A stretch of DNA of 36,544 nt from positions 1-36,544 of IMG/VR virus record IMGVR_UViG_3300010379_000020, one strand, 5' to 3'. Both the position numbers and the translations under genes were made by a program. Below are positions 3,568-33,336 of this stretch, in pieces. The notes under the pieces are model-generated. The model made no database searches, was not told the origin of the DNA, and saw only the letters and a program-made list of their open reading frames with translations. Within the stretch, counting starts at the first letter, position 1; each line of letters begins with the position of its first letter. The DNA is from a virus.

Positions 3568-3896
3568 TAGTCATCCTCCGATCCGTAAACACAGTCGTAG
3601 TAATCCACTTCGTGCTGCTCATCCTGCCAGTGAAACTCGATTGTTTCGCCATTGTTCTCGATGCTCGCCCACCAGTCCACGACGTTTGAGAAATCGCCAC
3701 AGTGCGTGTCGATCCAACGTTGTACCGATTCTCTCGTTATCGGTCCCTCTGTGACCGGTAGAGTGTCGCCATCAGTCTCACGCATACAGCCAACGTCGTA
3801 GTCGTCCAGGTTGTATTCCATCGCACACAGTCCGATACCTGGTTGCCAGATGTTACCGACGACCCTAAGCAAGCTTTTGGTGACTGTGTATTTCAT
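3567..3896 (-). CDS. Small acidic hypothetical protein
   Basis: Protein of 109 residues, unrecognised. It starts with a basic MKYTVTKSLLRVVG, then is strongly acidic, with many Asp/Glu/Trp/Tyr and a C-terminal DYYDCVYGSEDD. The ATG overlaps the stop of the upstream gene (ATGA). Acidic small proteins encoded in early accessory operons are often inhibitors or DNA mimics, but that is only a class-level possibility here. Confidence 0.55.
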   Translation of the reverse strand: MKYTVTKSLLRVVGNIWQPGIGLCAMEYNLDDYDVGCMRETDGDTLPVTEGPITRESVQRWIDTHCGDFSNVVDWWASIENNGETIEFHWQDEQHEVDYYDCVYGSEDD

Positions 3897-7460: not shown

Positions 7461-9073
7461 TGCCACTCGCTCTACAGCCCTGGATGGAGCAGCTCTCGAT
7501 CCAGAACAAAGAGACACTCCAAATCGAACGGCTCTCGTTCGACCAACAAGTCTCCGACTACGCCTGGTGCCAAGGTGCTCTCGTCAAAGAAGTGCAACGG
7601 CAATACAACCTCGGCCTGCCCGTCCGCATCATCGTGCTCAAAGCCCGACAGCTTGGCATCAGCACGGTCACAGCCGGGATTATGTATAACTGGACCTTTC
7701 TCCACCCCGGCATCCGATCGCTCGTGATCGCCCACGAAACCGAAGCCAGCAAAAACCTTTTCGACAAGGCCAAGCTGATGTGGGAGGAATGGCCGTACAA
7801 CCCGCTTTACACCGAATCGCACAACTCTCAGAAGACTCTCGGTTGGGAACAGACACGATCCTCGATCCGTGTCGCCACCGCCCGCAACACCGGCTCTGGT
7901 CGATCGTTCACCTATCACGCCGTCCACTGTTCGGAATGCGCTTTTTGGGAAGAACCCGAAACGCTGATGACGGGCCTCGGTCAGTCGGTCCCCTACGCCC
8001 ACGGATCGATCATCATCATCGAGTCCACCGCTAACGGAGTCGGTGGCTGGTTCTACGATGAATGGAGTAAAGCCGTCCAAGGCAAGACCGTCTTCGTGCC
8101 GATGTTCTTCCCCTGGTACAAGCACCCCGGCTACTCGTTCCGGACCACACTCACCCCGCTCGACTACGTGAAAGACGAACGGGAACTCGTGACCACCTTC
8201 GATCTGTCTCCTGGTCAGATCGCATGGCGTCGGCACACGATTCAAAACGAGTGCATGAACGATATGAACAAGTTCAACCAGGAGTATCCGAACACTCCCG
8301 AAGAAGCGTTCCTCTCGACCGGCCACAATGCCTTCCCACTCCTATCCATCGAACAATGCTACAAGCCCATGAACGGTGCTCGTGGCTTCCTCTACATGCG
8401 TCTCGGCCGCTACGAGTTCAAACGGGACCCGACCTCAGCTCTCCGGATCTACCAGTACCCCGCCGAAGATAAACGATGGGGTCAATACATCGTCTCTGGT
8501 GATCCGACTCGTACAGCGTTCGGTGACGGCACCTGCATTCAAGTCCTGAACATGAAGACGTTCGAACAGGTCGCCGTCTTCCACGGATTCATGGATCCCA
8601 TTCCGTTCGCCGAAGAGATGATGAAGCTCGGTCGCTTCTACAACGACGCCTTGCTCAACGTCGAGATCAATGGACCCGGCTACGCAACGATCGGTGCGAT
8701 CATGCAGTCGGGCTACCCGAATGTTTGGCAACACCGATGGATGGACAAGGCACCGGGCAAGATCTCAACCTCGTTCGGTTGGCAGATGTCCTACCACCGC
8801 AAGCACGCTGCAACAGCACTCGTCATCAACCTGCTCGCCCAAAAGGCTTTGACCATTCACGACCGAACCACATACGAAGAGATGAAGAACTTCGTCTATC
8901 TCCCTGGTGGAGAACTCGGTCCGGCATCGCCGCAAGGAAACGACGACTCGGTGACCTCGCTCTTGATTGCCGTCGCCTCGGTTATCTACAATGACCCGCA
9001 GACCTATGGCGAAGGGCCAGCGCCGGTCTACGACGATCTGTTCGATCAACCCCCTTGGGAAGCCTTTCGCTGA
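7460..9073 (+). CDS. terL: Terminase large subunit
   Basis: Protein of 537 residues. The ATPase half has a Walker-A-like KARQLGIST (61-69), an adenine/coupling region SLVIAHETEAS (88-98) and a Walker B SIIIIESTANG (183-193) with the catalytic Glu188. The nuclease half has the RNase-H-like acids Asp348 (VSGDPT), Glu402 (NVEINGPG) and Asp495/496 (QGNDDSVTS). It packages genome into proheads with ATP hydrolysis and cuts the concatemer. Length and motif order fit the terminase_6/GpA-like class. The ATG overlaps the preceding TAA by one base, and the following zinc-ribbon gene is coupled in the same way. This is the most secure annotation in the window. Confidence 0.95.
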   Translation: MPLALQPWMEQLSIQNKETLQIERLSFDQQVSDYAWCQGALVKEVQRQYNLGLPVRIIVLKARQLGISTVTAGIMYNWTFLHPGIRSLVIAHETEASKNLFDKAKLMWEEWPYNPLYTESHNSQKTLGWEQTRSSIRVATARNTGSGRSFTYHAVHCSECAFWEEPETLMTGLGQSVPYAHGSIIIIESTANGVGGWFYDEWSKAVQGKTVFVPMFFPWYKHPGYSFRTTLTPLDYVKDERELVTTFDLSPGQIAWRRHTIQNECMNDMNKFNQEYPNTPEEAFLSTGHNAFPLLSIEQCYKPMNGARGFLYMRLGRYEFKRDPTSALRIYQYPAEDKRWGQYIVSGDPTRTAFGDGTCIQVLNMKTFEQVAVFHGFMDPIPFAEEMMKLGRFYNDALLNVEINGPGYATIGAIMQSGYPNVWQHRWMDKAPGKISTSFGWQMSYHRKHAATALVINLLAQKALTIHDRTTYEEMKNFVYLPGGELGPASPQGNDDSVTSLLIAVASVIYNDPQTYGEGPAPVYDDLFDQPPWEAFR

Positions 9074-14059: not shown

Positions 14060-15052
14060 ATGGCTGTTACCCCGATCGGAACCACGACCGTCACGGCGAT
14101 CAGTCGTCGGTTGATCCTTCCGAAGATCACCGACAACATCTACGGGTCGAACCCGTTGTTCTATCGGTGGAACCGGATGAACAAGTTCGTTGTGAAGGGT
14201 GGGTTCCAGATCGAGATCCCGCTGATGTATACCAAGATGCAGGGGTCACAGTGGTACAGCGGCTATCAGGTCTTGAACATCACGCCGACCGACTCCGTGC
14301 AGAACGGTGCTCTCGGTTGGGCGCAGCTCCAAGTCGCCGTCACGGTTGACGGTCTGACTCTTCTCCGTGCCTCTTCGAACGAAGCGATCGTTGACTATAT
14401 CGCTACGCAGTTCAAGCAGGCCGAGATGGACATTGCCGACAACCTCGGCTTCGGTCTGTGGTCTGATGGCATTGCTAACCCGCTCGCCACGGTCGGTCTG
14501 TACGCCGCCGTTGACAACGGGAACGTTGCGGCTTCCTACGAGGGAATCGCCCACTCGTCAAACTCGTGGTGGAATGCTCAGATCGACTCGTCTACGACGA
14601 CGATGGGGACCGCAGCTCTGCAATCCCTCTTCGGATCATGCACTTCTGGTGGTCGGTCGCCGACGATCATCGTCTCGAACCAGGCCAACTACAACCGGTA
14701 CTACGCCCTCAACCTGGCTTCGCAGCAGTTCCCGGTGCAGCCAGGCGGTCGGGATCAGCAGATGGCGCAGGCTGGTTTCGAGAACCAACTGTTCAACGGT
14801 GTTCCGTGGATGGTCGATTCCCACGCCGCTCCGTCAGTCACCAATGGTCTTACGGCCGTTGAGACTGGTGGACCCTGGTTCCTGAACGAGTCGTACTTCG
14901 AGTATGTCGTCTCGGAGCGGGCCAACTGCAACCTGCGGGACTTCCAATCCCCGCCGAACCAGGACGCCATGACGGCTCTGCTTCTGTGGGCCGGTCAGCT
15001 CACTTGTTCCAACATCAGTCGTCAGGGCGGATTCACCGCTCTCACCGGTTAG
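14060..15052 (+). CDS. Major capsid protein (HK97-fold, P22-like)
   Basis: Protein of 330 residues with AAAGGA 7 bases before ATG. The N-terminal DNIYGSNPLFYRWNRMNK and GGFQIEIPLMYTKMQGSQWYSGY follow the arrangement of phage coat proteins in which an N-arm and E-loop precede a WYxGYxxL segment. The middle (IVDYIATQFKQAEMDIADNL) is the long spine helix, and TIIVSNQANYNRYYALN is part of the A-domain. The last 40 residues end in LLWAGQLTCSNISRQGGFTA. Length is usual for a small HK97-fold coat. The decoration-like gene follows after 9 bases. Confidence 0.85.
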   Translation: MAVTPIGTTTVTAISRRLILPKITDNIYGSNPLFYRWNRMNKFVVKGGFQIEIPLMYTKMQGSQWYSGYQVLNITPTDSVQNGALGWAQLQVAVTVDGLTLLRASSNEAIVDYIATQFKQAEMDIADNLGFGLWSDGIANPLATVGLYAAVDNGNVAASYEGIAHSSNSWWNAQIDSSTTTMGTAALQSLFGSCTSGGRSPTIIVSNQANYNRYYALNLASQQFPVQPGGRDQQMAQAGFENQLFNGVPWMVDSHAAPSVTNGLTAVETGGPWFLNESYFEYVVSERANCNLRDFQSPPNQDAMTALLLWAGQLTCSNISRQGGFTALTG

Positions 15053-26798: not shown

Positions 26799-26972
26799 GT
26801 ATACGGTACTAAACAGTAAACGGTATACGGGTAGAGCGCCGTATACTGTTTACAAATCGCCGTATACAAGCTGTATACAGGTGTATACACCGGTTGGCTG
26901 TATACCGTTTACAGGCCCCTTATATGACTAATAAGGACAAGGGTTTGTGAACGATCCACACGAGCTGTATAC
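26799..26972. promoter_or_regulatory. GTATAC repeat array (operator or iterons)
   Basis: Eight GTATAC palindromes at 26799, 26823, 26841, 26862, 26873, 26883, 26900 and 26967, seven of them within 107 bases and spaced 10-24 bases. Longer similarity: AAACGGTATACGG, CCGTATACTGTTTAC and CTGTATACCGTTTACAGG carry GTTTAC on one side, so neighbouring sites are inverted pairs. The array fills the 204-base gap before the ribbon-helix-helix gene, and the last copy lies in a 19-codon GTG leader frame (26947-27006). Local sequence is far more AT-rich than the genome. Confidence 0.85.
26908..26934 (+). promoter_or_regulatory. Possible promoter inside the repeat array
   Basis: TTTACA (26908-26913) and TAATAA (26929-26934) with a 15-base spacer, just after the seventh GTATAC. 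If used, repressor bound at the array would cover the -35 region. The spacer is short for a sigma-70-type promoter, so this is a weak call. Confidence 0.3.
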
Positions 26973-26990: not shown

Positions 26991-27482
26991 ATGGCCGACG
27001 AAGTGATCCCGTTCGACAAGCCCCGGCGACGGAGCTACACGAAGGACACCAGCCGGACACCTGATGGCGATACCGATGTTCTCTCGTTCCGAGCACCGAA
27101 GACCATCATCCGACGCCTTGACGAACTCGTGCAATCCGGAAGTGACATCGATCTCAAAACCAAATCAGATGCTTTAAACGATGCGCTGTTCCGATGGCTC
27201 GAATGGTATCTCGAAGAACACCAAGCAGATGTACCAGGAATCCATGACCGGTTCGTTCTCGATCGGATCGGGTTCTACTTCACAGCTCGTGAACGGGAAC
27301 TCGAAATGATGAAATCAACCTATGACAGAGCAACAAGAGAAAGCAACGACGGCTTGTTCAACGCTCTGTTCTACAACTTAATGCGGTTCAAGAATGAACT
27401 CGAAGCCGACCCAATCGCATCACCAGCTCAGTTAGGTGAATGCAATGCCATGATCGAGAAGATACAGAAAAGGAGTAAGTGA
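26991..27482 (+). CDS. Ribbon-helix-helix DNA-binding protein
   Basis: Protein of 163 residues. After a basic N-terminal stretch, TDVLSFRAPKTIIRRLDELV (about 28-47), SGSDIDLKTKSDALNDALFRW (about 49-69) is a ribbon-helix-helix: beta strand VLSFRAP, helix A, then helix B after the conserved K-x-x-A. The C-terminal half is helical and acidic. RHH proteins bind palindromes as dimers or higher multimers along arrays and often control their own gene. The adjacent GTATAC array is the obvious target. A plasmid-like role (ParG/CopG/Arc family) in origin control is also possible. CTTTAAAC lies at 27172 in the RHH helix. Confidence 0.7.
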   Translation: MADEVIPFDKPRRRSYTKDTSRTPDGDTDVLSFRAPKTIIRRLDELVQSGSDIDLKTKSDALNDALFRWLEWYLEEHQADVPGIHDRFVLDRIGFYFTARERELEMMKSTYDRATRESNDGLFNALFYNLMRFKNELEADPIASPAQLGECNAMIEKIQKRSK

Positions 27483-27734
27483 ATGAGGATTCAGGTCTAC
27501 GCCGAAGAGATGACGGGTGAAGTCGATCGGGTCAATAAGAACGGTTATGAGGGAGTCCGCTTCTATCTCCAATCCGGACCGTCGCTCCACCACACGGCAC
27601 TCGATGATGATCGTTCAGCGGTCACCTTCTGGATCCCCCATACGAAACACGAAGCGATCGCTCTCGAAGCTGCACTCGGCCGGGGTCGGAAGCTCGTCAC
27701 TGACTACATCACCGAACAGATGTTGTCGAAGTGA
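27483..27734 (+). CDS. Conserved small phage protein (MRxQVYAEEMT type)
   Basis: Protein of 83 residues immediately after the RHH gene. MRIQVYAEEMTGEVDRV and GVRFYLQSGPSLHHTALDDDRSAVTFWIPHT are a compact beta-alpha pattern that I think recurs in phage replication regions, but no function is known. It precedes the helicase by 1 base. Confidence 0.55.
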   Translation: MRIQVYAEEMTGEVDRVNKNGYEGVRFYLQSGPSLHHTALDDDRSAVTFWIPHTKHEAIALEAALGRGRKLVTDYITEQMLSK

Positions 27735-27735
27735 A

Positions 27736-28713
27736 GTGCCGCTCCCACCCTGGCTCGTTCGGATCCGTCTTCATCAGGTTGAAGCGATCATGCAGACCGT
27801 CGAACAGTTTAGACAGAACGTACCGATTGTGATGGTCGATGCGCCAACCGGCTCCGGCAAAACCCTGATCGCCGAAATGGTCCGACAGACCTTCTCATGG
27901 CGAGCGGTCTATCTCTGCTCGACCCTCTCACTCCAAGATCAGTTCGCTACCGACTTTCCGTACTCAGCCGTTCTTCGTGGCCGATCGAACTACCCAACTG
28001 CCGACACACCCCAGCTCTATCCGAACCTAACCGCCGCCGACTGTACGAAAGAAAACGCAAGTGGTCCGCAATGCTCCGACTGTGATCCTCGTCTCGATCC
28101 TGATGTCGAGTTCAAGCATTGCCGTTGGTGTCATCCTGTCTCGTCGTGTCTCTATGAGATCGAGAAGGCTAGAGCACTTCGGTCCCCGCTGGCGTGTTCC
28201 AACATCTCTTACTTCCTTTACGAATCGAACTACATCGGATGGCTGGCCCACAGCCGGGACCTCATCATCGTGGATGAAGCCGACCTGCTTGAAGATGCTC
28301 TGCTCTCGTTCATCTCGGTGTCGGTCACACCACATCAGCAACGGGAGTATGGCATTTCGATGCCCGCCAAAAAGACAGTGGAAGACACCTGGATCAGATG
28401 GGCCACCGCCACCGAGGCGAAGGTGCGATCTCTAAAGAGTCGTCGCTTCGGAGATGATCTGACATCGATCCGTCGCAAGAAGAATATCGAGCGACTCCAC
28501 ACTGACTTGCTCCGACTTACCAACGAAGAGTCTGGCATCGCCAAAGGTAACTGGGTCTACACCGGTTACGACACCGGCCGCATCGAGTTTAAACCGATCA
28601 ACGTTGCTCCATATGCCAAAGAGTTCCTCTGGCGACACGGACCGAGATTCCTACTGATGTCTGCGACAACGATCTCGTTCGCAGCTCAGGCCGAAGCGTT
28701 AGGACTCGAATGA
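27736..28713 (+). CDS. DinG/XPD-like SF2 helicase, N-terminal half (ATPase domain 1 with Fe-S-type Cys cluster)
   Basis: Protein of 325 residues, GTG start. Walker A DAPTGSGKT (35-43), then a Cys-rich insertion with Cys103, 113, 116, 129, 132 and 138, of which four could hold the 4Fe-4S cluster of XPD/DinG helicases. Motif II VDEAD (179-183) and motif III LLMSATTIS (306-314) follow. The protein stops seven residues after SATT, at ALGLE, before motifs IV-VI. Those motifs reappear in the separate gene at 29407, so the helicase is split. DinG-like helicases unwind 5'-3' and remove R-loops or restart forks. GTTTAAAC at 28587 reads Glu-Phe-Lys. Confidence 0.85.
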   Translation: MPLPPWLVRIRLHQVEAIMQTVEQFRQNVPIVMVDAPTGSGKTLIAEMVRQTFSWRAVYLCSTLSLQDQFATDFPYSAVLRGRSNYPTADTPQLYPNLTAADCTKENASGPQCSDCDPRLDPDVEFKHCRWCHPVSSCLYEIEKARALRSPLACSNISYFLYESNYIGWLAHSRDLIIVDEADLLEDALLSFISVSVTPHQQREYGISMPAKKTVEDTWIRWATATEAKVRSLKSRRFGDDLTSIRRKKNIERLHTDLLRLTNEESGIAKGNWVYTGYDTGRIEFKPINVAPYAKEFLWRHGPRFLLMSATTISFAAQAEALGLE

Positions 28714-28907
28714 TCTGCGAACACTGTGGAGAAGAAATCCAGGGGATCACCACGAACGTCTGGCCTTGGGTCCACAAGACCGGTTATATGACTGGTCGGC
28801 CAGAATGCTCAGCACACGCAACTTGTATGGCAACACCGGTTGAGCCTGGAAAAGCAGAAGTTCTCTATGCGTCAGACATCTTAGAAAAGATACGTCGTGA
28901 TAGGTAG
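28710..28907 (+). CDS. Small Cys/His protein inserted in the split helicase (1 of 3)
   Basis: Protein of 65 residues overlapping the helicase stop (ATGA). CEHCGEE at the N-terminus and a later PECSAHATC give Cys3, Cys6, Cys33, His35 or His36 and Cys39 as a possible zinc-ribbon site. Unrecognised family. Its presence between the two helicase halves with coupled overlaps suggests it is translated with them and might join or regulate them. Confidence 0.55.
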   Translation: MICEHCGEEIQGITTNVWPWVHKTGYMTGRPECSAHATCMATPVEPGKAEVLYASDILEKIRRDR

Positions 28908-29091
28908 CTTCTGGCGGAAGCGGTCGCACTGGGCGATCTGTATCGACTGTGGATACCGTCGATACAACCTGACCGAACGTGGAGCACATCGGGTCGCTGG
29001 TCACCACGAGAAGTTCCACCCGAAGCACACGGTTCAGACTGATATGGATCGGCTCAGCAAACCGATCGTGAAGCATGGGTATATCGGATGA
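28897..29091 (+). CDS. Small zinc-finger-like protein inserted in the split helicase (2 of 3)
   Basis: Protein of 64 residues, GTG start in an 11-base overlap. CIDCGYRRYNLTERGAHRVA then GHHEKFHP gives C-x2-C...H-x3-H, a compact C2H2-like finger with a basic linker (RYNLTERGAHR). Looks like a nucleic-acid-binding finger. No family name. Confidence 0.55.
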   Translation: MIGSFWRKRSHWAICIDCGYRRYNLTERGAHRVAGHHEKFHPKHTVQTDMDRLSKPIVKHGYIG

Positions 29092-29369
29092 GAGCTTATT
29101 CAACTGAGAACGGAAAAACCGACTGGGTTTTTACAATCGGGTTTGATAACCAATGTGATTTTGAGATGTCTCCTTTCGAACCGGAAGATGATGAACCCCT
29201 CTTCATGGTTGTTGAAAACAAACCTGAGTTTATTGATGCTGATGACATCAACGTAATGGCATCGTTAGTTATTCCGTGTCGATGGGGAAGACTGATCTTC
29301 CAGTTCCCTATCTATGAACGAGAGGCTGTAAGTAACTGGTTACAAGATATTGACTTGGCGATCGGATGA
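29088..29369 (+). CDS. AT-rich hypothetical protein inserted in the split helicase (3 of 3)
   Basis: Protein of 93 residues, ATGA overlap. Codon use is clearly different from the flanks: the bases 29100-29260 are AT-rich with many TTT/GAT/AAA codons, so the gene has another origin. Acidic, with FEPEDDEPLFMVVENKPEFI and a hydrophobic VIPCRWGRLIFQFPIY. Unrecognised. Confidence 0.5.
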   Translation: MRAYSTENGKTDWVFTIGFDNQCDFEMSPFEPEDDEPLFMVVENKPEFIDADDINVMASLVIPCRWGRLIFQFPIYEREAVSNWLQDIDLAIG

Positions 29370-29378
29370 GCACCAGCA

Positions 29379-29390
29379 GGGCGACAGCCC
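29379..29390 (+). promoter_or_regulatory. Short hairpin at the right edge of the helicase insertion
   Basis: GGGC-GACA-GCCC forms a 4-bp stem with a tetraloop in the 37-base gap (29370-29406) before the second helicase gene. It is followed by TTACTAGCCCCC. It could aid reinitiation or mark an old insertion boundary. Confidence 0.3.
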
Positions 29391-29406
29391 TTACTAGCCC
29401 CCGGTC

Positions 29407-30039
29407 GTGCATTTCGTGACCTACGGAACCGTCCTAGTCCAATCAACCTTCCCACCGGAACGCCGACCGATCTATCTCTACCCAATCGCCGAAATGTCCC
29501 GAAAGGAACTCGATGCCTCGATCACGCCGATCTGCGCCGCCATCAACAAGATCCTCGCAACTCGTGACGGTAGGACTCTCATCCATACTGTCTCTTACGA
29601 TCTCAACAAGGCGATTAACCAACGAATCCACCAGACTCGTCCTGTCTTCACCTACGCCACTTCCGCTGCTAAGCAACAAGCGATTGAAGGCTATCTATCT
29701 CACCCCGACAGCATTCTTCTCGCCCCATCCCTCGACCGAGGCATCGACCTCCCCCAAGAATACTGCCGCCACATCATCGTCCCGAAGATCCCGTTCCCGT
29801 CCCTCGGCGACAAGCAGGTCTCAGCCCGCCTCTATTCCCGAGGCGGTCGTCTCTGGTACAGCGTGAAGACGATCCGTTCGCTCGTCCAGATGACCGGTCG
29901 TGGTTTCCGATCCGAAGACGACGAATGCAGCTCGTACATCCTCGATAAGAACTTCCTGACGAACATTTGGCGTCAGAGCAAACACCTTCTGCCGGAATGG
30001 TGGAAAGAAGCCCTTGTGTGGAACGCAGGGCAACTATGA
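29407..30039 (+). CDS. DinG/XPD-like SF2 helicase, C-terminal half (ATPase domain 2)
   Basis: Protein of 210 residues starting at GTG 29407, with TAG in frame 12 bases upstream, so it is not a continuation of the N-terminal half. QSTFPPERRPIYLYP (12-26) matches the segment that follows motif III in DinG/XPD. Then GRTLIHTVSY (55-64), LLAPSLDRGIDLP (104-116) and motif VI LVQMTGRGFRSEDDE (159-173) with the arginine fingers Arg165/Arg168. All parts of the second RecA-like lobe are present, so a working two-subunit helicase is plausible. It needs the N-terminal partner for ATP binding. Confidence 0.85.
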   Translation: MHFVTYGTVLVQSTFPPERRPIYLYPIAEMSRKELDASITPICAAINKILATRDGRTLIHTVSYDLNKAINQRIHQTRPVFTYATSAAKQQAIEGYLSHPDSILLAPSLDRGIDLPQEYCRHIIVPKIPFPSLGDKQVSARLYSRGGRLWYSVKTIRSLVQMTGRGFRSEDDECSSYILDKNFLTNIWRQSKHLLPEWWKEALVWNAGQL

Positions 30040-30049
30040 AAGGAACCTA

Positions 30050-30859
30050 ATGCCGCAAGAAGATTGGGAACTATCATCCGGCCTCCGAGATGATGTGACC
30101 TTTACCATCATGCTCGCAACCTTCGGGTTCAGAGCGAACTTCAACAACGGTGCGTCGATGCTCCTGATCCTCGTCGGCACGGACGAAGAGAACCAGCCGT
30201 TCGAGCACATCTGCTCTGTGGGTGCGGACTGGGTTTGTCCGGACGGCAAGCACATCCAGCACCCGACGAAGAAGAACATCAACCGTTCCTCCCGTTACGG
30301 ACAGTGGATCGCAGCGTGCCAGGAGATCCCGACGCTGTGGAACTATCTGATGAACTCGCCGGGTCCGCTCGACGCAAATGTGTGGGAGAACCTGGTCCTG
30401 CATCTGCGATTGAGGAACGTCGTGCAGACGATCCGTGGTGAGTCGGTCAACCGAGACGTGCTGTTGCCCGATGCGTTCATCGGCTTCGCTCAGCCGGGTG
30501 TTCTTGCCGCACCGACGATTCCTCAACCGCCGTTGATGCAACCGCCAATGATGACGCTTGTCGCACAACCGCTCTTGCAACCCGTCGCCCAACCTGCTAG
30601 TCCTGTGATGGCACCTGCCCCGGTCGCTTCTCCTGTCGGCCCGACTCCGGAACAGATGTTGCAAGCAGCTCAGGCGCAAGCAGGATTGGCGACAGCCGAG
30701 TCGCCAATCCGGAGTCAACTACGGGAGATCGCCAGAATGGCACCGGACCACAACACTTTCGTCGGTCAGGCTTTCGCCATCCCGGGAGTCGTAGCGGACA
30801 CCGTGCTCGTCAAAGAGCTGATGGATCCCAACGACTTTTACCCGAAAGCGAGAGTGTAA
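30050..30859 (+). CDS. Possible ssDNA-binding protein
   Basis: Protein of 269 residues with AAAGGA 6 bases before ATG. Residues 1-130 are beta-rich with VTFTIMLATFGFRANFNNGA and ICSVGADWVCPDGKHIQHPT and could be an OB-fold. Residues 150-215 are Pro/Ala/Met/Gln-rich linker (PTIPQPPLMQPPMMTLVAQP) and a helical C-domain follows. Its position between helicase and nuclease/recombinase is where phages carry an SSB. The link is context plus fold guess; I do not see a canonical SSB motif or acidic tail tip. Confidence 0.4.
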   Translation: MPQEDWELSSGLRDDVTFTIMLATFGFRANFNNGASMLLILVGTDEENQPFEHICSVGADWVCPDGKHIQHPTKKNINRSSRYGQWIAACQEIPTLWNYLMNSPGPLDANVWENLVLHLRLRNVVQTIRGESVNRDVLLPDAFIGFAQPGVLAAPTIPQPPLMQPPMMTLVAQPLLQPVAQPASPVMAPAPVASPVGPTPEQMLQAAQAQAGLATAESPIRSQLREIARMAPDHNTFVGQAFAIPGVVADTVLVKELMDPNDFYPKARV

Positions 30860-31420
30860 ATGCCCGACCTACAAACTGGCCTCGTGCTCCAAAAGGAGAA
30901 GGCACCTGCCATCGTCCGCTCAGGCGGTCGTGGTGGTCAGCCGCACGAGTGGGAGAAGATCATCGGCCCGACGATCTCAGCCGACCCTGGTGAAGACTTC
31001 ATCATCTACCTGTACCCGGACCATCCTCCGGCGAACGGTCAGAGCTACACCGAAGATGAACTCGAACAGGGCAAGCGCCAAGCAGCGGCTCGATCGGCTT
31101 CGATCGCAAACCGCTACTGGCATCACGTCCCTGGCGAGCACGTCGAGACATCGGTTCGGATGCGACCCGATGGCATGTATGGCGTGTACGCCACTCACCA
31201 CGGAGCGATGACCGAAGAGAACCGATTGAAGCTGGCGAAGCGTCGTGCGCCTCGTGGCCCCCGGCAAACCTCCGCTCAGGATGAGCCAGGAGCCGACGAA
31301 ACCAACGTCCCGGCACCGAGCACCACACCAGAGCCATCCGTGACGACCGGCGCAGCCGTGCCCACCGCAGCCGAACGTGCGAAGGCGGCGGCGAAGAAGT
31401 CCCAAGGCGCTCGTCACTGA
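30860..31420 (+). CDS. Hypothetical protein, replication module
   Basis: Protein of 186 residues, start 1 base after the upstream stop. N-terminal two thirds are mixed charged (GQPHEWEKIIGPTISADPGE; NRYWHHVPGEHVETSVRMRP), C-terminal third is low-complexity Pro/Thr/Ala with a basic end (AERAKAAAKKSQGARH). Unrecognised. Coupled to the nuclease gene, so probably an accessory to it or to SSB. Confidence 0.45.
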   Translation: MPDLQTGLVLQKEKAPAIVRSGGRGGQPHEWEKIIGPTISADPGEDFIIYLYPDHPPANGQSYTEDELEQGKRQAAARSASIANRYWHHVPGEHVETSVRMRPDGMYGVYATHHGAMTEENRLKLAKRRAPRGPRQTSAQDEPGADETNVPAPSTTPEPSVTTGAAVPTAAERAKAAAKKSQGARH

Positions 31421-32409
31421 TGAGCGAAGCAACCGTGACCGATCCCCCGGTCAGCGATCATGCGATCGTTCGAGTGACCGATACCGGTATCTATTACCGA
31501 GCATCGGCACTCGGCGGTTGCTTCCGGGCACTATGGGCGGCTCGCAACGGTCACGAGCCAAAGCAACCACCCGACGCCATGCAAACCATCTTCGATCGTG
31601 GTCACGAGATCGAAGACATCGTTCTTGATCGGATGGTTGAAGATGGCTGGCAGATCTATGACCGTCAACGAGAGATCATCATCCCGGTCCCGATCGACAC
31701 TGAGGTTCCCTGCTACGTGGTCGGGCATATTGATGCTCTTGGAGTACCGCCAGTCGGAGCTAACCCGGCTGATCCCGAAGCCCATCTCTTCGAGCACCTA
31801 GTCGAAGTCAAAGGCTTCGGCAAGTCCTACATGGACAGCTACCGACTCCACGGTTTAAACGCCCGGTACAAGGTCCAGGTCGGTTCTTACTGTGTCGGCA
31901 TTCCCACATCGACCTGTGCGTTCGCTGTCTATGACAAAGAGAACGACACCTATCACGTCGATTTCATCGAGAACCAAGTCAAGGAATGGGAACTCCACAC
32001 CATCGTTCTCGCCGTTGAAGAGATGTACCGGACGGGCACACTTCCGTCCTGCACCAACGAGTACCCCTGTCCCTACTACTACCTGCACGATCCAAAGGAA
32101 ACGCCGATGCCTCTGGATGCAACGCAAGATACCCTCGTCACTTCGTATCTTGCACTCTCCGATCAGATCAAGATCCTCACTGATGCTCGTTCGATGATCT
32201 CGAATCAGCTCAAAGACTCGATCAACTGGGTCGATGGTGCGCCGACGAGTTACGACGCCACTGGTGCAGTCGTCGTTGTCACTCAGAATCCCCAAGCACT
32301 CGATCGACCGAAGATCCAACAACTTCTAGTCGATGCCGAGCTGGATCCCGATGACTACCTGCTTCCGTCTACCGGTTGGCATTTGCGGATCAATGCGAAG
32401 AAGTCGTAA
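31420..32409 (+). CDS. Cas4/RecB-like PD-(D/E)XK exonuclease
   Basis: Protein of 329 residues. Active-site motifs of the RecB/Cas4 superfamily are in order: GHID (102-105, Asp105), VEVKG (128-132, Glu129 and Lys131) and Q-x-GSYCVG (153-160). Cys34 near the N-terminus and Cys211/Cys217 after the core (LPSCTNEYPC) resemble the Fe-S ligands of Cas4-type nucleases, though a fourth Cys is unclear. It would degrade DNA ends to create single strands. GTTTAAAC at 31853 reads Gly-Leu-Asn beside the Gln motif. Pairs with the Sak4-like gene one gene downstream. Confidence 0.8.
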   Translation: MSEATVTDPPVSDHAIVRVTDTGIYYRASALGGCFRALWAARNGHEPKQPPDAMQTIFDRGHEIEDIVLDRMVEDGWQIYDRQREIIIPVPIDTEVPCYVVGHIDALGVPPVGANPADPEAHLFEHLVEVKGFGKSYMDSYRLHGLNARYKVQVGSYCVGIPTSTCAFAVYDKENDTYHVDFIENQVKEWELHTIVLAVEEMYRTGTLPSCTNEYPCPYYYLHDPKETPMPLDATQDTLVTSYLALSDQIKILTDARSMISNQLKDSINWVDGAPTSYDATGAVVVVTQNPQALDRPKIQQLLVDAELDPDDYLLPSTGWHLRINAKKS

Positions 32410-32576
32410 TGCAACCTGATTGGAATAACCCTTGTGACTTCTGTGTCCATGATAAAGCAGCTCATCGAGAAGGTGAACGTTATTGCACCGCAAAGGTGCA
32501 TGTGTACGCTGTGGATGGATCACTCTGGTACATCTATGACTGTCCCTGTCTAGCGTTTACCGACCATGCCGTTTAA
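32409..32576 (+). CDS. 55-residue CxxCxH...H zinc protein (paralogue A)
   Basis: ATG overlaps the nuclease TAA by one base. Cys9-x2-Cys12-x-His14-x4-His19, Cys26 and a C-terminal CPCLAF (45-50). Exactly the same spacing (C-x2-C-x-H-x4-H...C-x-C-x2-F) appears in the product of 33813-33944, so the two are paralogues flanking the Sak4 gene. Likely zinc-binding; function unknown. Overlaps the Sak4 gene by 11 bases. Confidence 0.6.
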   Translation: MQPDWNNPCDFCVHDKAAHREGERYCTAKVHVYAVDGSLWYIYDCPCLAFTDHAV

Positions 32577-33336
32577 CCCTCGACTCCCAATCAAGGAACG
32601 CATTCTCGATCTCGGTCCAGCCGGATCGGGTAAGACTTCCAACTTCCTCCACATCGCTCGATTCCTCACCGCTACTCAAACGGGTTCGAACTTCTACATC
32701 GGCGACAGTGACTTCGCTATGGAGCGAATGCTGATCGACTACCCCGAACTCATCCCTCACATCGCTGGCGGTATCCACCCGCTCTACGACTGGGATGACT
32801 ACATTCGCTTCGGTCAGTTCGCCATTGCCAACGCCACGCCGAACGATTGGATCTGCATCGACTTCATCGGGTCAGCCTGGAAAGCGGTCCAAGAGTTCTA
32901 CGTCGCCCAGGTGTTCAATCGTGGCATCGGCGACTACTTCCTCGCCGCTCGTAAGAAGGAAGTTGCCGAACTTGAAGGTTGGGTCGATTGGTCTGTCATC
33001 AATCCGCTTTACCAACAGTGGGTCATGCCGCTCCTGTTTAAATCCAAGGCCCATATCTTCGCCACGGCTAAGTCCGATCCTCTCTCTGGTGGCAACAAAC
33101 CCACCGAAGATAAGAACGTCCGGTCGCTGTTCCTAGAGTTTGGAGTCAAGCCGGTCGGACAGAAGGATCTTCCGTTCCAGTTCCACACGGTCCTGATCTC
33201 GGATCGAGATGTGCGAGGCAACCGGCTCATCAATACTGTGAAGGATCGGCAACGACCCGAAGTTCGTGGACAGCTCATTACGAACTTCGCCATCGACTAC
33301 TTGACCAACATCGCAGGATGGACGGTGACGGCATGA
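32566..33336 (+). CDS. Sak4/RecA-like ATPase (single-strand annealing/recombinase)
   Basis: Protein of 256 residues. Walker A LGPAGSGKTSN (16-26) and Walker B DWICIDF (94-100) lie within a RecA-like core; the sequence up to 250 lacks helicase motifs. VLISDRDVRGNRLINTVKDR resembles the C-terminal part of phage AAA_24/Sak4 proteins. Those proteins bind ssDNA and promote strand annealing or exchange, usually partnered with an exonuclease and an SSB, as here. Its size (about 250 residues) fits Sak4. It is the most likely engine of recombination-dependent replication in this phage. Confidence 0.8.
   Translation: MPFNPRLPIKERILDLGPAGSGKTSNFLHIARFLTATQTGSNFYIGDSDFAMERMLIDYPELIPHIAGGIHPLYDWDDYIRFGQFAIANATPNDWICIDFIGSAWKAVQEFYVAQVFNRGIGDYFLAARKKEVAELEGWVDWSVINPLYQQWVMPLLFKSKAHIFATAKSDPLSGGNKPTEDKNVRSLFLEFGVKPVGQKDLPFQFHTVLISDRDVRGNRLINTVKDRQRPEVRGQLITNFAIDYLTNIAGWTVTA

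Follow-up and report, generated by a model that had tools for sequence, protein, structure and literature searches.

Two separate genes for a DinG/XPD-type helicase in a clade of tailed phages, probably encoding a two-subunit enzyme

Organization of the locus

The stretch of DNA analyzed (the window) is a phage contig of 36,544 bases from an IMG/VR virus record, and carries genes for a large terminase, a portal and a major head protein; no tRNA genes were found in it. The major head protein (14060-15052) is a distant relative (27%) of its counterparts in Myxococcus phage Mx8 and in Bradyrhizobium phage ppBjS10J-1. A DinG/XPD-type helicase is encoded in two genes of this contig, with three small genes between them (Table 1).

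Table 1. Features of the helicase region
Feature	Position	Strand	Remarks
CopG/ribbon-helix-helix-like gene	26991..27482	+	conserved neighbor upstream of helicase
83-codon gene, PHROG 20753	27483-27734		just before helicase
Helicase N-half	27736..28713	+	325 aa; GTG start, TGA stop
Small Cys/His-rich ORF	28710..28907	+	65 aa; ATG overlaps N-half stop (ATGA); apparent passenger
Small Cys/His-rich ORF	28897..29091	+	64 aa; GTG start; apparent passenger
Small AT-rich ORF	29088..29369	+	93 aa; ATGA overlap with preceding ORF; apparent passenger
17-codon ORF	29366..29419	+	ATG overlaps stop of third small ORF; TGA overlaps GTG 29416
Helicase C-half	29416..30039	+	RecA2 (motifs IV, V, VI); probable GTG start
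'ELSSGLRDD' family gene	30050..30859	+	269 aa; no known domain; conserved neighbor downstream
Cas4-like PD-(D/E)XK exonuclease	31420..32409	+	conserved neighbor downstream
Sak4-like P-loop protein	32566..33336	+	conserved neighbor downstream

The N-half (GC 0.55) contains RecA1 with motifs I, Ia, II and III, a four-cysteine cluster and an Arch-like insertion. It matches ResIII/DEAD in Pfam and positions 19-373 of the 579-position PHROG 2488 profile (E 7.7e-36). The C-half (GC 0.56) matches Helicase_C_2 in Pfam (3.5e-22) and positions 381-576 of the same profile (E 1.6e-40). Together the two halves cover the profile with essentially no loss at the cut, which bears out the sequence-only reading of this locus, namely that motifs I-III and the cysteine cluster lie in one gene and motifs IV-VI in another. 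The three ORFs in between were also confirmed as described there, two of them rich in Cys/His and the third AT rich, with a GC of 0.42 against the values of the halves. No homologues of the three were found at E 1 in 50,697 phage records, and Pfam and PHROG profile searches assigned none of them to a recognisable family. An Rfam search of 27400-30300 for introns or structured RNA returned only a spurious snoRNA match (E 3.5), and no intein family was detected in the halves or in the gap ORFs.

The C-half has its own GTG start, as had been proposed, but the alignment favors position 29416 over the 29407 given at that time. GTG 29416 is the more likely start on sequence grounds, because the Met column of 'MxYxTVxVPSTFP' aligns across the split relatives and because joining at this codon reproduces the linker length of an unsplit relative (see below). 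The 17-codon ORF that ends on this start may provide translational coupling into the C-half. It was not counted as a gene because its codon use resembles non-coding sequence and is unlike that of the phage's genes.

The gene order HTH, CopG-like, helicase N, helicase C, 250-270 aa protein, ~150-200 aa protein and Cas4-like nuclease is kept in most split contigs with a neighborhood long enough for reading, and the Sak4-like P-loop protein follows next after the Cas4-like nuclease where visible. This conserved order suggests a replication or recombination module around the split helicase. A role in anti-phage defence was considered, as the halves match type IV CRISPR DinG models in PADLOC. It was set aside because the neighbors checked (the Cas4-like nuclease, the P-loop protein and the small ORFs) gave no match to any defence model and resemble phage recombination genes. 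The PHROG 20753 gene just before the helicase is a widely shared small phage gene, found also in Brevundimonas, Xanthomonas, Gordonia and Mycobacterium phages.

Unsplit relatives

A search of IMG/VR with the C-half alone found no close relatives, and a genome scan for prophage relatives yielded only a DinG-like helicase of ordinary type, from a Nitrospiraceae MAG. Closer relatives were found by scanning with an alignment of the window and the unsplit contigs L010 and L012, plus a DNA pattern for motif VI. Sorting of all loci holding both parts, by frame and stops, separated 10 split from 89 unsplit distinct sequences. An additional scan, made with the N-half alone, returned an identical split set, all other sequences being unsplit. 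The unsplit homologues that the sequence-only reading had suggested looking for do exist, therefore, L010 and L012 among them.

L010 (IMGVR_UViG_3300001592_000018) encodes a single 629-codon helicase that shares 44% identity with the N-half of the window and 48% with the C-half, set between a CopG-like gene on one side and window-type downstream genes on the other. L012 encodes a single 563-codon helicase in a setting like that of L010. The junction region of L010 reads ..LGL-KHKFATVSMEN-TFP.., where the window has ..LGLE at the end of the N-half and MTYGTVLVQ-STFP at the start of the C-half (GTG 29416). The window halves abut relative to L010, with zero residues missing, and in an alignment with complete helicases from other phages the joined sequence has every motif in order. 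The unsplit L010 (5671-6000) and L023 (near 3700-3800) carry at the N terminus an additional SWIM-like Cys/His motif (CSCYAHYFG...CSHVLAVIMY), and the split N-halves are without it. Straight after its unsplit helicase L010 also carries two similar Cys-rich genes in tandem (7583-8342), an apparent duplication.

Structural position of the cut

The predicted model of the N-half (pLDDT 83.4) aligns with residues 10-478 of Escherichia coli DinG (Z 20.0, rmsd 3.5, 301 aligned) and 10-474 of human XPD. The model of the C-half is of moderate quality (mean pLDDT 64.7) and aligns with DinG 489-698 (Z 12.9, rmsd 3.5, 176 aligned) and XPD 487-711, with Z values of 12.9-13.1 overall; because of this quality, the match mainly confirms that made by sequence. 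The structural references were 6FWR/6FWS for DinG and 2VSF, 3CRV and 6RO4 for XPD. HD1 with an Arch-type insertion and the HD2 fold were both present in the predicted models. The cut maps between DinG 478 and 489 and between XPD 474 and 487, which in these models is the hinge between HD1 and HD2 (RecA1/RecA2). The earlier suggestion that the cut lies at a natural hinge agrees with this mapping.

Split relatives, origin and selection

The split set comprises the window, L015, L016, L017, L018, L019, L020, L025, L115 (=L158) and L150 (=L159). The N-halves end in the pattern ..SAT(T/I)IS..LGL/I(D/E)*, and the C-halves begin just before V.VPSTFP. In all split contigs but L159 the N-half stops 0-2 residues past the post-SAT LGL/LGI; that of L159 extends a few residues beyond. 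What lies at the junction is variable. The halves overlap by TTGA in L020 and by ATGA in L017 and L018, and are six bases apart in L019. The gap holds one 46-codon Cys-rich gene in L015, one 61-codon gene in L016, one overlapping Cys-rich ORF in L025, two genes in L115 and three in the window. In L015 and L016 the C-half start overlaps the stop of the in-gap small gene. The frame of the C-half relative to the N-half varies among the split contigs. In L159 (5890-6010; the same contig as L150) the reading frames of the overlapping halves differ and a start codon is lacking around the position expected for the C-half, so that either a frameshift product or an upstream start with a long overlap is needed, or else the contig has an assembly indel.

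The small genes shift among slots of the operon, and the gap between the halves is one such slot. The in-gap Cys-rich protein of L015 is 57% identical to an L017 homologue encoded upstream of the helicase, and the L015 homologue of the 83-codon gene that precedes the helicase in the window is situated far downstream, past the Cas4-like gene. By sequence comparison, the in-gap genes are passengers and not conserved partners of the helicase, because their number and sequence vary, because they are absent in L017, L018, L019 and L020, and because the L015 protein has its L017 homologue outside the gap. The earlier proposal of zinc proteins bound to the helicase is not supported by the same observations.

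An IQ-TREE analysis of 50 joined sequences places all ten split members in one clade (bootstrap 98, SH-aLRT 94). On the joined tree the split state requires one change, compared with 9.3 when labels are shuffled, and a single change was obtained in 97% of bootstrap trees. The tree of the N-half alone likewise gives one change. The tree of the C-half alone, which is the shorter part, does not place L025 reliably with the other split members, which gives two changes, with weak support. These trees and the shared junction pattern indicate that the fission arose once and that the cut point is common to the clade. Identity to the TerL protein of the window is 47-60% for the eight split contigs with a TerL gene, and 41-46% for five unsplit contigs; split and unsplit forms thus coexist within one wider phage group.

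Across the split clade, APTGSGKT, DEAD and SATT in the N-half and motifs IV-VI with their arginines (QMTGRGxRS) in the C-half are invariant or nearly so; among the aligned split members, the Walker A lysine, the DEAD-box acids, SAT and the motif VI arginines do not vary at all. The cysteines C103, C129, C132 and C138 of the N-half are invariant in 9/9 aligned split members, and their position between motifs Ia and II is that of a 4Fe-4S-type cluster site, with cluster binding putative. In both halves pN/pS is ~0.2-0.45, with dS saturated or nearly so and pN at 0.16-0.37, and w is 0.09-0.19 where computable, values that indicate strong purifying selection on both. The distances of the N- and C-halves correlate (r 0.81). 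Alignments, trees and substitution rates together document two genes of single origin with a common cut point, intact motifs and continued selection.

A probable helicase of two chains

Helicases of the DinG/XPD type hold ATP between their two RecA domains. With the cut at the RecA hinge, the ATP site would therefore be built from two polypeptides, and since ATP lies between RecA1 and RecA2, neither half should be an active motor alone. The locus is very probably that of an obligate two-subunit DinG/XPD-type superfamily 2 helicase (PHROG 2488), cut once, maintained by selection and assembled non-covalently. A two-subunit helicase was among the possibilities raised by the sequence-only reading, and is now strongly supported by the single split clade, the common cut, the purifying selection and the position at the RecA1/RecA2 hinge.

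According to this proposal, the gene was cut a single time, at the hinge, in the ancestor of a tailed-phage clade whose genomes measure ~32-40 kb, and selection has kept both halves since then. One chain consists of RecA1, the iron-sulfur-type cysteines and the Arch region, and the other of RecA2, and ATP would be bound between motifs I and II of the first and the motif VI arginines of the second. The two proteins would assemble non-covalently into a working helicase, and their joint production may be aided by start and stop codons that adjoin and in many cases overlap within a single operon. The Cas4-like nuclease, the Sak4-like P-loop protein and the conserved 250-270 aa protein are probable partners in replication or recombination. 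Physical assembly of the halves, helicase activity and a role in one of these processes are thus predicted from sequence. The fission boundary itself has turned into an ordinary intergenic slot, a landing place where small genes come and go.

The absence of inserts from several split relatives bears most directly on the possibility that a three-gene mobile cassette was recently inserted into an intact helicase, the fragments of which still work or are beginning to decay. Such a cassette would account for the three extra genes, one of them AT rich, and for the gene order shared with the unsplit L010 and L012, and phage genes split by homing endonucleases have precedent (PMC2988022). However, the nearest relatives of the window are likewise split, searches of the three ORFs revealed no domain of a homing endonuclease, a transposase or an integrase, and purifying selection acts on both halves. 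The insert-free split relatives largely refute a recent cassette, which is judged very improbable. That an insertion broke the gene, as had been suggested, fits poorly, since the split is common to members without an insert; no insertion as such is demonstrated for the window, because its closest relatives are also split and several of them are gap-free.

Restoration of a full-length protein by RNA splicing, protein splicing or programmed frameshifting is extremely unlikely. The window halves happen to share a frame and the L159/L150 halves overlap out of frame and lack a nearby start, both of which could be taken in its favor, but no group I or II intron was detected with Rfam, and L017, L018 and L020 have nothing between the halves and yet change frame. 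Because the halves overlap in these three contigs, splicing cannot serve as a general explanation of the split; it was a possibility that the sequence-only reading had asked to be considered. Whole genes and stops lie between the halves in the window, L015, L016 and L115, so frameshifting cannot join them there. The 693-base insertion that preserves the frame in the window, to which meaning had been attached, is a coincidence, because the frame of the C-half differs among relatives, three contigs having overlapping halves. A further possibility is that the split was kept while the halves diverged to separate jobs, for example a DNA-binding scaffold (N) and a regulator (C), with no ATP-driven helicase. 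Physical separation would permit such subfunctions, but the invariance of the Walker A lysine, the DEAD-box acids, SAT and the motif VI arginines would be anticipated only with a composite ATP site that remains in use, and the two halves evolve in step; divergence of this kind is regarded as very improbable.

A two-chain helicase would be of mechanistic interest in that the two RecA domains of a monomeric helicase close on ATP and reopen at each step, and the presence of a covalent linker to join them is seldom questioned. There is a reasonable likelihood that these phages carry a natural obligate heterodimeric SF2 helicase, with RecA1 and RecA2 separate, joined non-covalently and persistent through the clade, in which assembly and disassembly could switch the motor. 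A clade free of the linker would be a natural experiment on how the halves meet, on processivity and on regulation by subunit exchange. Gene callers may label such halves as broken genes.

Comparison with known systems

The helicases of Tunturiibacter phage Tunturi_5 (XOB77635.1), Bacillus phage G (gp73), Vibrio phage Kuja, L010 and L012 are like the split helicase in family (PHROG 2488), motifs and cysteine cluster, and L010 and L012 also in neighboring genes. All of these are single chains, whereas RecA1 and RecA2 of the window are encoded by separate genes. The window and its nine relatives, in none of which both RecA domains lie in one polypeptide, represent a split variant of the family. 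E. coli DinG and XPD are likewise one chain, with which the two chains of the window align in predicted structure. To our knowledge, a natural DinG/XPD helicase whose RecA domains sit on two different chains has not been described, and a limited search of the open-access literature found no report of a split DinG/XPD or split phage helicase.

Genes in pieces are documented in T4-like phages, where nrdA of Aeh1 is split by mobE with a reportedly fully functional enzyme, a topoisomerase gene of T4 is split by mobA, and the DNA polymerase gene is divided into 43A and 43B; a homing endonuclease sits in the cut of Aeh1 nrdA and of the T4 topoisomerase (PMC2988022). In these cases, as here, a phage gene of replication or nucleotide metabolism is cut into two polypeptides. 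They are not helicases, however, and are tied to homing endonucleases or an untranslated spacer, neither of which was seen at the present locus, where the split is an old, clade-wide trait with variable gap content. An unsplit orthologue in relatives, as is typical of genes split by homing endonucleases, is found here, but no endonuclease lies between the halves. The locus also differs from genes interrupted by introns or inteins, the split relatives including gap-free ones.

Palindromes upstream of the operon

GTATAC palindromes occur nine times in the whole window, compared with 2.3 expected, and 8/9 of them are located at 26799-26972, just 5' of the CopG-like gene and the helicase operon. 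In the split relative L025, 6/8 GTATAC palindromes lie at the equivalent place. The cluster is possibly an operator array of the ribbon-helix-helix protein or a set of replication iterons.
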